This document shows positions 55,222 to 63,955 of a stretch of 64,000 bases of DNA, in pieces (within the stretch, counting starts at the first letter, position 1; each line of letters begins with the position of its first letter). The translations under genes and the position numbers were made by a program. Under the pieces are notes generated by a model. It worked only from the letters and a program-made list of their open reading frames with translations. It ran no database searches and had not been told where the DNA came from. The DNA lies in contig NZ_REFW01000001.1 of assembly GCF_003688855.1 (NCBI RefSeq), positions 992,001 to 1,056,000 on the forward strand. Reading direction: 5' to 3'. The DNA is from Tessaracoccus antarcticus. GTDB lineage: Bacteria; Actinomycetota; Actinomycetes; Propionibacteriales; Propionibacteriaceae.

Positions 55222-55261
55222 CCCAGTGAATCCAGAGGGGTGATCCACAGCCCTTCCAACG

Positions 55262-55287
55262 TGGGCGGGTGCTGGTGCGCCCGCCCA
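55262..55287 (+). terminator. Hairpin after the small membrane protein gene
   Basis: TGGGCGGG (55262-55269) pairs with CCCGCCCA (55280-55287) around a ten-base loop, followed by TTGTTGTG. It lies 41 bases after the stop and may end that short transcript before the sortase gene. Confidence 0.5.
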
Positions 55288-55485
55288 TTGTTGTGTCCGG
55301 GCGCGGACGCCCGCCAGGGCACCGGTGTGGTCCGACGCTGCGGCGTGCCCATCGCCGCTGGGGTGTTGCCCCCGGAGGAGGCGCGCACCGCGCCGACATA
55401 TTTGGCATGGCGACGCTTGCACCGCAAGATGGCTCACGACAGCCACTCACCACCACCCGCCCACTTCCTTTGTAGGAGTCACGTC

Positions 55486-56367
55486 ATGCGCCTGGCACCG
55501 GTCACGCGGGATCGTGTGCTGATGCAGGCCGTCATCATCCTCGGTGTCGTGCTTCTGCTGTATCCGACGGCTGCCGACTGGTTTTCCTCCAGGCAGCACA
55601 ACTCCGAGACGTCCGGTTACGTGCAGGCCGTCGAAAAGGTGGCACCCGAGGTGCGGCGGGACCTTCTGGACATCGCCAATGACTACAACTCCCGCATGCC
55701 GCAGGGTCCTCTGCGGGACCCCTACGCCGGTGAAATCAGCGCGGAGGAGGAGGGCGCAGCGTACGCCGCCTATGAGCGCATGCTGGAGGCCAGCGCCAAT
55801 GGTGTGATTGGAAGTCTGGTCTACGAGGGCGTCGGTGTTGACCTCCCGATCTACCACGGGACGGGCGAGGATGTGCTGGCCAAGGGCGTGGGGCACCTGT
55901 ACGGCTCGTCCCTCCCGGTCGGAGGGCCGGGCACCCACTCGGTGCTCACGTCGCACTCCGGCCTCGTGCACGCCACGCTGTTCTCCAACATGCCCAAGAA
56001 GACGGCACTGGGGGACGTGTTCTCCGTGGATGTCCTGGGGGAGCCGCACTACTACCGGGTGGACCAGATCCTGACGGTCCTGCCCAACCAGACCGAGTCG
56101 CTCAAGATTGTGGCCAACGAGGACTACATCACCCTCATCACGTGCACCCCCATCGGCATCAATACCCACAGACTGTTGGTGAGGGGGACCCGGATCCCGC
56201 CTCCTCTGGTCGAGACTGAGCCCGGATTCTGGGTTCCGGGCGACGGCGTCGTCGCCGGGTTCCCCTGGTGGGCCGTGGGCCTGGGTGCGGGGGTCTTCTT
56301 CAGCTTCGCCGTGTTCGCCACCAGGTCGACGCCGCGGCGGCTGCTGGATGCCCCGACAGGGAACTGA
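55486..56367 (+). CDS. Class C-type sortase
   Basis: The ATG at 55486 follows TAGGAGTCA. The 293-residue transpeptidase has an N-terminal membrane helix, a coiled region (SGYVQAVEKVAPEVRRDLLD), and the sortase beta barrel. The catalytic His is in LTSHSGLVHATLFSN, the Cys is in YITLITCTPIGINTHRLLVRG and the Arg is in that same phrase. A C-terminal membrane helix is typical of class C, which links pilin subunits. A DPYAGE segment near residue 80 may be the lid that covers the active site in this class. No pilin gene is obvious in the window. Confidence 0.9.
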   Translation: MRLAPVTRDRVLMQAVIILGVVLLLYPTAADWFSSRQHNSETSGYVQAVEKVAPEVRRDLLDIANDYNSRMPQGPLRDPYAGEISAEEEGAAYAAYERMLEASANGVIGSLVYEGVGVDLPIYHGTGEDVLAKGVGHLYGSSLPVGGPGTHSVLTSHSGLVHATLFSNMPKKTALGDVFSVDVLGEPHYYRVDQILTVLPNQTESLKIVANEDYITLITCTPIGINTHRLLVRGTRIPPPLVETEPGFWVPGDGVVAGFPWWAVGLGAGVFFSFAVFATRSTPRRLLDAPTGN

Positions 56368-57783: not shown

Positions 57784-57871
57784 TGGCGGAGGATACGAGA
57801 TTCGAACTCGTGAGGGCTTGCACCCAACCCGCTTTCCAAGCGAGCGCCATAGGCCACTAGGCGAATCCTCC
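57784..57871 (-). tRNA. tRNA-Ser (anticodon GGA)
   Basis: On the minus strand the acceptor GGAGGAT pairs with ATCCTCC. A long variable arm (GGTTGGGTGCAAGCCC region) is present, as in class II tRNAs. The T arm is CGAGTTCGAATCTCG, and the anticodon loop CTTGGAAAG contains GGA. A discriminator G and an encoded CCA (57784-57786) are present. Confidence 0.93.
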
Positions 57872-58302: not shown

Positions 58303-58752
58303 ATGAAGGAAGCGAAGTTCTCTGTGTCCAAACGTAAGGTTGTCGCGATTGTCGGCGCAGCCGCAGCATTTGCCGCAGTGACCGTGTCGGCTGCCACACT
58401 GGGTGGCCTTCAGACGGACTCCGTGGGCGCCAACAGCAACAAGGTGTCCGCGCCGGTCAGCAAGGGCGTCGCCCTGAACTGGAGCACGGAATTCAGTGCC
58501 AAGGACCAGGCGTATGTCGTCTCGTCAATTGCACTGGCGCCCATCTCCACGGAGGAGAAGATCCCGGAGAAGGCGACCGTTCGCGTCACCCTCACGGATG
58601 CTTCCGGCGACGTGCTCGGTGAGTACAACAGTACCGACGGCGCCACGTCGTTCGAGAAGCCGGGCAAGGTCGTCACAGCCCATGACGTCGCGAACGCGTC
58701 GGTGGTCATCAACGGCGGAAACGTCACCACCATCGCCGACGAGACTGATTGA
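58303..58752 (+). CDS. Secreted protein with alternate (SipW-type) signal peptide
   Basis: The ATG is preceded by a G-rich ribosome site. The 149-residue protein has a basic start, a hydrophobic core and then SAATLGGLQTDSVGANSNKV. This stretch is shared with the 552-residue protein encoded two genes downstream (TLGGLQTD). The mature part is beta-rich, without cysteine. SipW-type signal peptides are typically followed by such short secreted proteins, including matrix components such as TasA, but this protein is not TasA by sequence. Its stop abuts the signal peptidase gene. Confidence 0.7.
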   Translation: MKEAKFSVSKRKVVAIVGAAAAFAAVTVSAATLGGLQTDSVGANSNKVSAPVSKGVALNWSTEFSAKDQAYVVSSIALAPISTEEKIPEKATVRVTLTDASGDVLGEYNSTDGATSFEKPGKVVTAHDVANASVVINGGNVTTIADETD

Positions 58753-58763
58753 TCGTCGATCCC

Positions 58764-59384
58764 ATGACCCAGGAGATCCTTCGCCCAGTGGCGGACAACG
58801 CGTCGGGGGGCGCCGAGTCTGACACTGTCGCGAGTTCTCCTCGTCATGCGGAGCAGCAACAGCCGAGGACCCGTGGGGGGGTCCGTAAGGTCCTCGGCTG
58901 GATGCTGCTCGTGATGCTTGTCGTGGCCATCTGGCCTGCGACGTGGGGGGGACTCACAGGCATCACGGTCGTCAACGGCCACTCCATGGAGCCGGCGTAC
59001 GAGAACAATGACATGGTCCTCACCCTGCGGCATTCGTCGTACGCGGTGGGGGATGTCGTCTCGTACAAGGTTCCGGAGGGGCAGGATGGCGCCGGGGGGC
59101 GTGTCATCCACCGCATCATCGCTGTCGACGACAGCGGCGTGCAGCCCGTGTTCACCACACAGGGGGACAACAATCCCTCGGTGGACCCGTGGCGGTTCAG
59201 TACAACCGACATCGTGGGCGAGGCCACGTTGCGCGTACCCCGGATTGGGGGCGCGTTCAACGGGTCGAGTGGACTGATGTTGGGGGCAGTGGTGGGCTTC
59301 GCCGTCCTGGTCGTGTTGTGGCCATCGAGGCCGAAGCCGCAGAATGGGGCGCCCACCACCAAGCCCACTCATGAGACGGACTAG
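58764..59384 (+). CDS. sipW: SipW/ER-type signal peptidase I
   Basis: The 206-residue membrane protease has an N-terminal helix (KVLGWMLLVMLVVAIWP) and the catalytic serine in VVNGHSMEPAYENNDM (Ser74). The second catalytic position is histidine in GGRVIHRIIAVDD (His116), not the lysine of LepB. The acid is in TTQGDNNPSVD (Asp141). A C-terminal helix follows. His in place of Lys marks the SipW/archaeal/ER class, which processes the neighbouring exported proteins. The start is ATG 58764; TTG 58749 overlaps the previous stop and is possible. Confidence 0.88.
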   Translation: MTQEILRPVADNASGGAESDTVASSPRHAEQQQPRTRGGVRKVLGWMLLVMLVVAIWPATWGGLTGITVVNGHSMEPAYENNDMVLTLRHSSYAVGDVVSYKVPEGQDGAGGRVIHRIIAVDDSGVQPVFTTQGDNNPSVDPWRFSTTDIVGEATLRVPRIGGAFNGSSGLMLGAVVGFAVLVVLWPSRPKPQNGAPTTKPTHETD

Positions 59385-59390
59385 ACAGGC

Positions 59391-61049
59391 ATGATCATGC
59401 TGCGCCGCCGAGCCATGCGACCACGTGTCGTCGTGGCCCTGGCGGCTGCTGGCGTCTTGGCGGCCTCAGTCGTTTTCAGTTCCGCGGGCACACTCGGCGG
59501 GCTGCAGACCGATGGGCTGGGTGCCGCCAGTGGCGTCACCCAGCACGTCTCAGCGGTGCAGCTCGAGTGGAACCGCGACGCCCAGGACATGGCCACCCGT
59601 CCCAGTTCGCTCCGGCTGACCGTCGACAGCGACCAGTCGTTCGAGCAGGGCGACACAGTCGCCGTCACCGCCACCGGCCCGGGTTCCGACACCTGTTCCG
59701 CCAAGGCCACGGTGCCAACACCTTCCACCGTCGTGGATCTCACTTTCCCTGCCTGCGGGGTCATGCTGTGGGAACTCCGTGGCGTGGCCGTCAACATCTC
59801 CGGATCCGGCGATGCCACAGCACTGCGAACCAACGTCGGGGCGTTGCAGGGGACGCTCGCGAGCTTCGACGGCGCCGTCGTCCAGCCCGATGCTCCCGCG
59901 ACACCCGGCTACACCACCGTCCGCACGTCCGGCGTCGACAGACTCACCACACTGCGACTCGGAGTGGGTGACATCACGGCGGATCAGTTGGTGGGTCGCC
60001 GCCTCGTTGCCATTCTTGCCACACCGGCCAACGAGGACACACCGTACGTGGGTGTCGTCGGCACCCCCTTCAACAACCAGGGGATCTGGGCCGAGAAGGA
60101 CGCCCGCACCGCGGTGTCCACCGTGGTGGTCGACCTGACGCGGGTGGCTGGCGGACGGGCACCCAAGGTGGCCGACGTGGCCCGCTACCAACTCATGCTC
60201 CTGCAGCCCCAGCGGCTGGGCGCCGACCAGTCGGCCGCCACCACCTACGCCATCATCCCCGGCGGCGGACTCGTGGAGGCAACGGCCCCTGAGCCGAGCC
60301 CTACGCCCACGCCCACGCCCACCCCGGGGCCGAGTCCGACCCCGCAGCCCGTGGCCGTGTCCTCGGCCGTGGAACCCGTTGGCCTCGACCCGCGACTGAA
60401 GGTCACTGGTCGCTCCTCCCAGAAGCAGGATGAGACCACCCTGCGGTTCTGTCACGAGTTCGACATCTCCAACACCTCGAAGGAGGCCGTCGCCTGGCGC
60501 CTGACGTTCGACACCACCAAGCCGCCCATGTGGGGTCTGGACCCCACGGTCGTGGACGGCAACGGCATCGGCACACTGCAGAGCATGTGGGGATTCGAGA
60601 AGATCGACTACCAGCGATCCACCGGCCTGTGGAGCGTGGGTGGCGTGAACTACAACAAGGTCCTCGCGGCCGGCCAGTCGGTGACGGTGGGCTACTGCGC
60701 CCAGCCGAAGATCCCGGCTGTGGACAGCACCCGCTTCGACAAGCCCCAGGTCTCCCTCGAGCCCGGCAGCACCCAGTACCACGTGCAACTGCGCATGAAG
60801 GTGACATCGTCGTTCACGTACCTCGTGCCGTGGGAGGCGGAGATCGATCTCGCCAACTACGTCTGCCCCGCGAGCCTCCCGGCGAACCTGAGCGGGCAGA
60901 ACGCGGTGCTGACCAGGATCGATGGCACCCGGTACCGCGTGCGGGGCACCGACAACACCTTCAGGTTCGTGTCCAAGGACAAGAAGCAGGACTACGTCTT
61001 CCTCGGCTTCAACCCCGTCAGCGACCCCTTCGCTCCCGGCTGCTCGTAG
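59391..61049 (+). CDS. Large secreted SipW-type substrate with Thr/Pro linker and C-terminal binding-like domain
   Basis: The 552-residue protein starts with a hydrophobic signal followed by SAGTLGGLQTDGLGAASGVT, the motif shared with the small protein at 58303. An unassigned region (to about residue 300) has cysteines at SDTCSAKATV and FPACGVMLW. A PSPTPTPTPTPGPSPTPQP linker follows. The C-terminal domain has paired cysteines (RFCHEFDISNTS, VGYCAQP, ANYVCPASLP) and the pattern ISNTSKEAVAWRLTFDT then KVLAAGQSVTVG. That pattern resembles CBM2-like modules. It is likely a surface or matrix protein, not an enzyme I can name. Confidence 0.65.
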   Translation: MIMLRRRAMRPRVVVALAAAGVLAASVVFSSAGTLGGLQTDGLGAASGVTQHVSAVQLEWNRDAQDMATRPSSLRLTVDSDQSFEQGDTVAVTATGPGSDTCSAKATVPTPSTVVDLTFPACGVMLWELRGVAVNISGSGDATALRTNVGALQGTLASFDGAVVQPDAPATPGYTTVRTSGVDRLTTLRLGVGDITADQLVGRRLVAILATPANEDTPYVGVVGTPFNNQGIWAEKDARTAVSTVVVDLTRVAGGRAPKVADVARYQLMLLQPQRLGADQSAATTYAIIPGGGLVEATAPEPSPTPTPTPTPGPSPTPQPVAVSSAVEPVGLDPRLKVTGRSSQKQDETTLRFCHEFDISNTSKEAVAWRLTFDTTKPPMWGLDPTVVDGNGIGTLQSMWGFEKIDYQRSTGLWSVGGVNYNKVLAAGQSVTVGYCAQPKIPAVDSTRFDKPQVSLEPGSTQYHVQLRMKVTSSFTYLVPWEAEIDLANYVCPASLPANLSGQNAVLTRIDGTRYRVRGTDNTFRFVSKDKKQDYVFLGFNPVSDPFAPGCS

Positions 61050-61104: not shown

Positions 61105-63690
61105 CTACGACCTCTGGGGTGTTGTGCCCACCACGCGCGACTCCCCGGCCGTGAGGCGGACCGCCACGTGGACCGGCGCACCGGAGTCCATGGCGAGATG
61201 GTCGATGGAGACCTGACCGAATCGGCAGGACAGCTCGAGGGTGCCGTCTCCCACCCGGATAAGTCCCCAGCCTGAGTCGGTCAGCAGGGGCCACGCCGTG
61301 CCCCGCTCGGGCGAGCGGACCTGCAGTGTGGCCGAGGGTGCATCCCAGGAGAGGCCGCTCCAGGCCTGCAGCACGCTCCACCCGGACAGGGCCCGAACGT
61401 AGTGGTCGCCGCACTCGATCTGGTTGTAGGGGTTGCGACGTCGCCCGTCGTAGCGTCCCCAGAGGCCGCGCAGGATCTGTTCGGCCTCCTCAGGAAGTCC
61501 TTCGCGGATGCAGTGGGCGGCCACTTGCTGTTCGCTGCCCGTCCACACCTCATCGCAGTACCGCGTGGGGACCTCCGGCCTACCACCGAGCGGCCACGTG
61601 CACATCAGCAGTCCCGTGTCCTCAGCGTCGGCGAAGGTGCGGTAGGGATTGTCGAAGTCCCGGAACCCGACGCGAAGGTTGTACCGCACCACCGATGTCA
61701 ATGCAGTGCGCACATGCTCAGCCGGCAGCACGTACCCCAGTCCCAGGTGGTGCGCCCACCACTGCCCGATGAGCTGGTCCGACAGGCATCCGGATTCCCA
61801 TTGGTACTGGGGCGGGTCACCGTCCTCGAGGACCTGGGTGAAGTATTGGCCGTTGAACAGTGCGTCGTCGTAGCCGCGGCTCCCGAGGATGAATCGATCG
61901 CGGCACCATGCGACCTCGTCGTCACGGCCCAGGAGTGCCCCCATCTCCTCCATGGCCCGCAGGGCGGCCAACCACAGCGTCCCCATGAAGGGGTTGAGTC
62001 CGGCCAGGTCGATGTCGTGGGTGGAGGGCTGGATGCCGTGCAGCATGCCGCTGCCGTCGGGATCCCACCTTCCCGCGATGTAGTCCATCAGGAGGTGCAG
62101 ACGGGGCCAGTAGCGCTCCAGCCATGGCAGCCCGGCGCCCTTGCGGACTTCGCGAAACAACTTCAGCACCGTGCTGAGCATCCCGTCCAGCGCGGGTTCG
62201 CCGGGGCCGCCGATGTCCCGATCCCACAGCTGGGGCAGGTGGGTGGGGGAGAGCACCCGGTGGGGGATGAATCCCTGTGGCGCCTGCATGATGTCCAGCT
62301 CGCATTCGCGCATGTCCCGCTCGATCTCCGGGAAGAGATCCGCGACGCCCTGGGCGTAGGCGAACACGTGGGTGCAGTTGAGGGGGCAGGACCCACCGAC
62401 GTTCCCGGACCACATGGGGGTGGAGGCTCCCTGCACGCCCTCGAAGCCGAAGAAGTGGCCGTCAGCGGTGCGGAAAAAACTGGGACTGCGGATGATCGAG
62501 GCCTGCGCGGCCATGTGTTCCAGCGCCTCGTCGTCCAGTGAACTCTCACCCAGTGCCGAGGTCCACTCCCGCGAGATCCGCTCCAGGTCCTCCCATTCGT
62601 GCTGGACGCGTGCCGCCACCGCGACGGCGTCGGCGTACTGCGTGGTGTAGTGGTTCCCCAGGAGGAACCGCGTGGCCCCCCATTCGGGGCGGATGCCACC
62701 GAACTGCGTGAAGTTGACGTGACGATTCGGGAAATGCCAGGCCAGGGCGAAGCGTACGGTGACCGTTTCACCCGCCTCCACGAAGAACTGGGCCGCCAGG
62801 CCGCCGTTCCAGGTGCTTCCCGTGGGGCTGGCCGCTGGTGTGGTGAACGTGCCCGACGGCTGCGGGTCGGCCATGTCCCTCGGCATGTGGTCCCAGTCGT
62901 TCGGCCCGAACGGCTGGCGGGACCGGAGGAAGCTGAGGAACTGCTCCGTGCTGGAGAATTGGGGGAGCGCCGTGGTCAGGGGCGCATCAGCCGTCAGCAC
63001 CATTTGCCCCGCACCCGGATGGTCGACAGGCAGGGTGTGGTTCTCCATGATGAGGGACGTCCAGCCCTCGGAGCGGTCCACCCGGTTGGTGTTGCCCCCG
63101 TAGCCCGGATGCCGAATGCCGTCCGGGGGAAGGATCCCGTCGCCCCCGACGGCGTTCTGCAGTGCACCTCCGAGCCACCCGTTCACCGGCACCACACCCG
63201 TGTTGGTGATGGTGAAGGTGAACATGGCCACCGGAATCGAGCTGCGGTCAAGATCCAGCGGGGCCATGGGCGTGAACGCCTCCAGGCTGATGCGTACCGG
63301 CAGGGATTCGTCCTCGTAGTCCACCGTGGCGAACGGGTAGGTGCCGGAGAACGTCGTGGCGGTGACCCCCTCCGCGTGGGACAGGAGGTCCCTCTGCCAG
63401 TGCGGGACGTGGTCGTCGTTGACCAGCGGTGTCTGCGTTCCGGATACAGGTCCCGGCGGTGCCTGGAGCACACGCACCTCGTTGAACGGGGGTTCCCACT
63501 GCGAGATGCGCACGGCGAAGAACGATCCGGGCAGTTCGCCCAGGTGGTTGCCGGTGTTGTGCAGTTGCCACTGGCGCAGGGACCCGTCGGCGCACAGCGA
63601 GACGTTGCCCGTGCCGATGCCGCCGAGCGGCATGGCGATGTGTCGTGCGTCCTCGTGAGGTGTCCGTCGGGTGCTGCGGGTGGGTGGCAT
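61105..63690 (-). CDS. GH116 family glycosidase (GBA2-like, beta-glucosidase/glucosylceramidase)
   Basis: The ATG at 63690 follows AGGAG and gives 861 residues; the longer frame is non-coding. The N-terminal beta-sandwich (RHIAMPLGGIGTGNVSLCAD, FFAVRISQWEPPFNEVRVLQ) precedes an (alpha/alpha)6 catalytic domain with SGNVGGSCPLNCTHVFAYAQ, LPQLWDRDIGGPGEPALDGM, GQYFTQVLEDGDPPQYQWES and CTWPLGGRPEVPTRYCDEVW. No signal peptide is seen, so it acts in the cytosol on an imported glucoside or xyloside. The promoter and operator upstream suggest sugar-responsive control by a LacI regulator. Confidence 0.88.
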   Translation of the reverse strand: MPPTRSTRRTPHEDARHIAMPLGGIGTGNVSLCADGSLRQWQLHNTGNHLGELPGSFFAVRISQWEPPFNEVRVLQAPPGPVSGTQTPLVNDDHVPHWQRDLLSHAEGVTATTFSGTYPFATVDYEDESLPVRISLEAFTPMAPLDLDRSSIPVAMFTFTITNTGVVPVNGWLGGALQNAVGGDGILPPDGIRHPGYGGNTNRVDRSEGWTSLIMENHTLPVDHPGAGQMVLTADAPLTTALPQFSSTEQFLSFLRSRQPFGPNDWDHMPRDMADPQPSGTFTTPAASPTGSTWNGGLAAQFFVEAGETVTVRFALAWHFPNRHVNFTQFGGIRPEWGATRFLLGNHYTTQYADAVAVAARVQHEWEDLERISREWTSALGESSLDDEALEHMAAQASIIRSPSFFRTADGHFFGFEGVQGASTPMWSGNVGGSCPLNCTHVFAYAQGVADLFPEIERDMRECELDIMQAPQGFIPHRVLSPTHLPQLWDRDIGGPGEPALDGMLSTVLKLFREVRKGAGLPWLERYWPRLHLLMDYIAGRWDPDGSGMLHGIQPSTHDIDLAGLNPFMGTLWLAALRAMEEMGALLGRDDEVAWCRDRFILGSRGYDDALFNGQYFTQVLEDGDPPQYQWESGCLSDQLIGQWWAHHLGLGYVLPAEHVRTALTSVVRYNLRVGFRDFDNPYRTFADAEDTGLLMCTWPLGGRPEVPTRYCDEVWTGSEQQVAAHCIREGLPEEAEQILRGLWGRYDGRRRNPYNQIECGDHYVRALSGWSVLQAWSGLSWDAPSATLQVRSPERGTAWPLLTDSGWGLIRVGDGTLELSCRFGQVSIDHLAMDSGAPVHVAVRLTAGESRVVGTTPQRS

Positions 63691-63763
63691 GGCGGAGCTC
63701 CTGTGTCGTCGGGGATGGGGGCAACGGTCTCGATCCAGCGCCCCGTCCTGGTTGACGAGTGCA

Positions 63764-63775
63764 GAAAACGATTTC
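63764..63775 (-). promoter_or_regulatory. LacI-type operator GAAAACGATTTC
   Basis: This 12-base palindrome of form GAAAnCGnTTTC lies five bases downstream of the GH116 promoter -10 box and would cover the transcription start. The copy at 63988 has the same relation to the divergent promoter. Confidence 0.6.
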
Positions 63776-63780
63776 ACACG

Positions 63781-63809
63781 ACGGTATGCGCGGCGAAGGG
63801 GTGTGTCAA
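63781..63809 (-). promoter_or_regulatory. GH116 gene promoter
   Basis: On the minus strand TTGACA (63809-63804) and TACCGT (63786-63781) are 17 bases apart. The gene begins about 90 bases downstream at 63690. The LacI-type operator follows directly. Confidence 0.65.
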
Positions 63810-63955
63810 GGGTCAGATGGGTGACGAAACGCCGCCCCAAGAGTGCGGTGGGGCTGGAGTCGCACGTCAGGATCCTTTGATATCTGACCGTTTGCGCTCG
63901 TTGTCGCCCGCGAGGGGGCAGGGCGACCTCGCTATCGCCACGGAAAAACCGACCG

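Follow-up and report, generated by a model that had tools for sequence, protein, structure and literature searches.

A recurrent three-gene cassette in Actinomycetota encodes a SipW/ER-type signal peptidase between two exported proteins that share a variant signal block

Three genes in the genome of Tessaracoccus antarcticus, encoding a small exported protein, a signal peptidase and a large exported protein, comprise an operon-like export cassette (Table 1). They were found in the 64,000-nucleotide stretch that was analyzed here (the window). The cassette is genuine and recurs in other genomes, and the association between its peptidase and its substrates reaches far beyond the window. Most likely it works like a SipW system. 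On profile and hhalign tests, the substrates lie outside the TasA/camelysin family and their signal is a variant one. Most knowledge of SipW-type systems comes from Bacillota, where they are tied to biofilm fibers. No actinobacterial cassette of this kind was found described in the literature, of which subscription journals were covered only in part.

Table 1. Features of the cassette (window positions).
Feature	Position	Strand	Basis or remark
Small exported protein gene	58303..58752	+	ORF; 149 aa; signal plus one predicted all-beta domain
Signal block SAATLGGLQTDSVGA in small protein	58387..58431	+	Kept in 7/7 relatives
SipW/ER-type signal peptidase I gene	58764..59384	+	206 aa; SMEP, IHRI, GDNN...DPW motifs
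Large exported protein gene	59391..61049	+	ORF; 552 aa
Signal block SAGTLGGLQTDGLGA in large protein	59481..59525	+	Alignment of substrate signal blocks
First domain of large protein, diverged copy of small-protein domain	59550..59828	+	hhalign
Pro/Thr-rich linker of large protein	60276..60356	+	Sequence; low model confidence
C-terminal beta-rich part of large protein, weak CBM_2 resemblance	60378..61043	+	Profile search; varies among relatives

The initial annotation had described the three genes as almost contiguous, and its coordinates and gaps were exact: 11 bases separate the small gene from the peptidase gene, and 6 bases separate the latter from the large gene. No promoter was recognized upstream of the cassette, so co-transcription of the three genes is read from their spacing. 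The middle gene had been assigned to the SipW/ER class of signal peptidase I, and this assignment stood. Its product exceeded the cut-off of TIGR02228, the model of ER/SipW-type signal peptidase I (64.7 bits, cut-off 51.85), and matched Pfam S26 above threshold. It scored 33.4 bits against the Bacillus SipW equivalog NF046067 (cut-off 190). By sequence, the nearest solved structures were SEC11C and SEC11A of the signal peptidase complex, and alignment with SEC11C supported a catalytic Ser-His pair, in which His replaces Lys, plus Asp. The catalytic residues S74, H116, D135, and D141 were invariant in six relatives. The protein has two membrane segments, one near each end, and the two products encoded on either side of it both look like cognate substrates.

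The blocks SAATLGGLQTDSVGA of the small protein and SAGTLGGLQTDGLGA of the large protein each follow a single hydrophobic core, and ATLGGLQTD-x2-GA is common to both, as had been noticed at the outset. Pairwise identity in the ten-column stretch SASAATLGGL averaged 0.82 among seven small proteins compared with 0.20–0.43 elsewhere, and column shuffling equaled this best region in 0.02% of trials. This indicated that the conservation of the block is more than chance. The block was also present in the third-gene proteins at the cassette loci of relatives. Fourteen substrates shared [AG]TLGG followed, five residues on, by LGA or a near variant, and one substrate signal block was divergent (ASLGT). 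The motif reads TLGG-L/I/A/V, without an aromatic residue.

In TasA, an aromatic residue at P2′ is a feature linked to poor cleavage by LepB. The cassette substrates carry no aromatic residue at P2′, and in principle their cleavage by an ordinary signal peptidase, at VSA|A or SAA|T, is possible; both points count against the reading of the cassette as a dedicated peptidase-substrate system. Here, another explanation was considered: both proteins follow the ordinary Sec route and a housekeeping LepB-type peptidase cuts them before TLGG, the SipW-like neighbor serves something else, and the block is the mature N-terminus, e.g., an assembly strand. Both VSA|A and SAA|T would pass as AxA-type sites, and the LGA part, which lies outside any signal, is conserved as well. 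However, the block occupies the place of the motif in canonical SipW substrates, and the peptidase clade described below tracks the substrates through many families of Actinomycetota, and we regard this explanation as unlikely. Under the preferred reading of a dedicated peptidase, alignment with the cleavage site TWA|AFND of Bacillus subtilis TasA (PMC10269814) would place the cut between the two glycines, TLG|GL, which fills the equal positions with smaller residues.

Each of the two substrates has one hydrophobic segment, at its N-terminus. The small protein has no LPxTG and no C-terminal membrane segment, and the large one has no LPxTG or other sorting signal and no C-terminal anchor. The AF2 model of the small protein was confident only at residues ~50–146 (pLDDT mostly >80), where the mature protein is predicted to form one all-beta, Ig-like domain. 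In the fold search this shallow model gave generic Ig/FnIII-like matches only (best Z 6.3), and the matches listed contained no TasA chain. The model of the large protein was poor (mean pLDDT 56), and its fold search gave no informative match. Apart from the common block, the two proteins had been said to differ. This statement is incomplete, since a profile of the mature small proteins and the first domain of the mature large proteins aligned co-linearly over 85 columns (hhalign E 1.3e-4, probability 54%). On this comparison, the two are distant homologues. A second beta-rich stretch, the Pro/Thr linker and the C-terminal part follow the first domain in the large protein.

No Pfam or NCBIfam model gave the mature part of either substrate a score above its cut-off, and a sequence search of solved structures yielded no relative of either one. 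The initial annotation had proposed a search with models of SipW-dependent signals; no NCBIfam model of SipW-dependent or alternate-signal substrates matched the seven small proteins or the large protein of the window at E up to 1. A further explanation is that the cassette is a true but highly diverged TasA/camelysin matrix-fiber system, in which the small protein corresponds to TasA and the large one to TapA. It would agree with the substrate-peptidase-substrate order, as in tapA-sipW-tasA (PMC10151520), with the N-terminal block common to both substrates and with the predicted all-beta small domain. However, PF12389 (TasA/camelysin) matched neither protein at E up to 1, hhalign of the small domain with canonical SipW substrates detected nothing (0.2%), the fold search gave no specific match, and a real camelysin is encoded elsewhere in the source genome. 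We therefore consider a diverged TasA system quite unlikely.

The C-terminal part of the large protein had been described as a CBM2-like module. This resemblance was weak, because CBM_2 matched the window protein with E 0.036 and 14.9 bits, below the gathering score of 24. Two of seven relatives of the large protein gave CBM_2 matches (best E 1.1e-4), and this part is absent from the large protein of Microbacterium paludicola. It is doubtful, in our judgment, that the substrates, once secreted, bind carbohydrates or act in adhesion without polymerizing, and that the peptidase only ensures their export. The CBM_2-like end of some large proteins and a GH116 glycosidase gene adjoining the cassette in the window would fit such a role; against it stand the score below threshold in the window protein, the absence of this end at the Microbacterium locus, and gene maps inspected by eye, in which no GH116 gene lay beside the cassette at the other loci read.

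The order small-peptidase-large was kept in seven loci of two families, Propionibacteriaceae and Microbacteriaceae (the window and six other genomes). Profile and protein searches found it in Tessaracoccus lapidicaptus (NZ_MBQD01000004.1), an uncultured Arachnia (CANMNB010000008.1), two further Propionibacteriaceae genera (G074 and G174), M. paludicola, and a Glaciihabitans MAG. The third gene of Glaciihabitans consists of two neighboring exported-protein ORFs, each with an ATLG/ASLG signal; the first of these resembles the initial domain of the large protein, and the second resembles the C-terminal part. The small family has a patchy distribution, with members in 5 of 198 genomes at the family level, 10 of 395 at the class level and 9 of 396 at the phylum level (each count includes the source genome, and the phylum match in G820 is weak and probably false). 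Small-protein relatives occur in about 2% of sampled Actinomycetota.

Some loci had been fetched with the peptidase, and co-occurrence was therefore counted on genomes found by the small protein alone. There were 20 such genomes (G007, G022, G074 and G174, plus nine genomes of the class and seven of the phylum), and 19 of them contained a peptidase matched by the cassette profile within a few kb. The exception was G811, in which the genes lie near a contig end. In addition, G571 and G897 have further small-family copies without an adjoining peptidase. Recurrence of the three genes in other actinobacterial genomes, which had been suggested as a check, was thus found. The initial annotation had also named two contrary outcomes, placement of either protein in an ordinary Sec/LepB family and a lack of co-occurrence; neither arose, since the SipW-type peptidase, the cognate-looking substrates and the co-occurrence were all supported. 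The initial interpretation was supported in part, with the matrix, fiber and glycan-binding roles that it had raised as hypotheses.

SipW-like peptidases are common in the family, in which 67 of 197 genomes passed the cut-off. Peptidases beside the small family scored 110–310 bits with the cassette profile and 31 others at most 79; this gap is partly built in for the six of the sixteen cassette peptidases from which the profile was made, and the other ten are independent. In a tree of 46 rows, all 16 cassette peptidases fell on one side of a branch with 99/97 support and 30 other SipW-like peptidases were apart, including the second peptidases of the source genome, G174, and Glaciihabitans. 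The branch was present in all 200 bootstrap trees, and shuffled labels gave 13.5 changes on average. The cassette peptidases are a clade provided that the root of the tree lies outside the group.

The substrates beside the other SipW-like peptidases mostly had the usual aromatic motif (TYALW, TLAYW). At control loci, 30 proteins in 24 of 40 loci, picked by the motif pattern, carried the canonical motif, e.g., GGSTYALWS and GGGTLAYWN. TLGG was found in no substrate of the control loci; in a pattern-free list of 83 hydrophobic segments from these loci, TLGG-like letters occurred once, within a peptidase. In the source genome, the second SipW-like peptidase (G000:C1:305120-306930; locus L029, 10060-12323) adjoins a camelysin (PF12389, 26.6 vs. 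a threshold of 22.5) and another secreted protein. Hence T. antarcticus has both the cassette and a canonical SipW system, and the specificity of peptidase for substrate is directly testable within one cell. Here, a separate clade of peptidases goes together with a substrate family that is likewise separate, has no name and bears a signal motif of its own. The motif and the family are absent from current libraries, and adding them would be a gain for annotators.

We consider it probable that the peptidase and the two substrates are dedicated to each other, use a variant signal and work like SipW-TapA/TasA. Both proteins would be exported through Sec, and their signals, in which TLG|GL replaces the T-x-A-x-Trp/Phe form normally seen at a SipW-type site, would be removed by the peptidase whose gene lies between theirs. 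The mature small protein, with its single predicted Ig-like domain, probably serves as the abundant subunit of an assembly, and the large protein probably joins it as a minor tip or anchor, as may be read from its first domain of the same kind, its second domain, its Pro/Thr linker and its possible carbohydrate-binding end. By analogy, the common block at the mature start and the common first domain suggest that both substrates enter one assembly, which is speculation. A bolder model, which we put forward tentatively, is an actinobacterial surface fiber: small Ig-like subunits released by the dedicated peptidase might polymerize through their conserved N-terminal segment (LQTD-x2-GA), inserted into the next subunit, and the large protein, with the same N-terminus and a domain copy, might act as tip or initiator with a glycan-binding end. 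The cassette suggests that Actinomycetota have a secreted assembly that has yet to be studied.

Like tapA-sipW-tasA in Bacillus subtilis (PMC10151520), the cassette has an ER-type peptidase gene between two substrate genes, a common block around the mature N-terminus of the substrates and an all-beta substrate, as predicted for the small protein. In TapA and TasA, the common N-terminal residues act in filament assembly (PMC10151520). The cassette differs in that its substrates are not camelysins by profile, its TLGG motif has no aromatic residue, and its peptidase is far under the SipW equivalog cut-off. The sipW-bsaA operon of Clostridium perfringens likewise pairs a dedicated SipW-like peptidase with an exported polymer protein, where the cassette has its substrates, and SipW is needed there for BsaA export and polymerization (PMC7395162); that operon adds a two-component system and further subunits. 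Canonical actinobacterial SipW-like loci of the same family (TYALW/TLAYW) also have a SipW-like peptidase beside at least one secreted protein with a motif after the hydrophobic core, but the branch of the cassette peptidase is separate, the signal motif differs, and the mature domains have no detectable homology.

A class C (pilin-type) sortase gene lies upstream of the cassette (window 55240-56367) with no obvious pilin partner beside it. A sortase gene is also found upstream of sipW-bsaA and is not required for polymerization (PMC7395162). A link between the cassette and the sortase was rejected, because neither substrate has an LPxTG-like signal and the locus gene maps of the relatives contained no sortase. 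A plasmid-borne origin was likewise rejected, as two family members had no PLSDB match. Directly upstream of the cassette, two relatives encode a LuxR-type regulator of ~800 aa (L027 11076-13481, L028 10280-12733). A common regulator was rejected, because only the DNA-binding domain of this gene was matched in the source genome, with no orthologue. Downstream, the GH116-family gene (window 61105-63840, minus strand) is convergent with the large gene. Tandem copies of the small protein apparently occur in other lineages of actinobacteria (L126 5444-6867, L127 7779-8639). A tRNA-Ser(GGA) gene adjoins the cassette in the window (57784-57871, minus strand) and in Arachnia (L027 13658-13745, plus strand), its 5′ side facing the cassette in both, and the cassette site may therefore be an old common position or an insertion hotspot.
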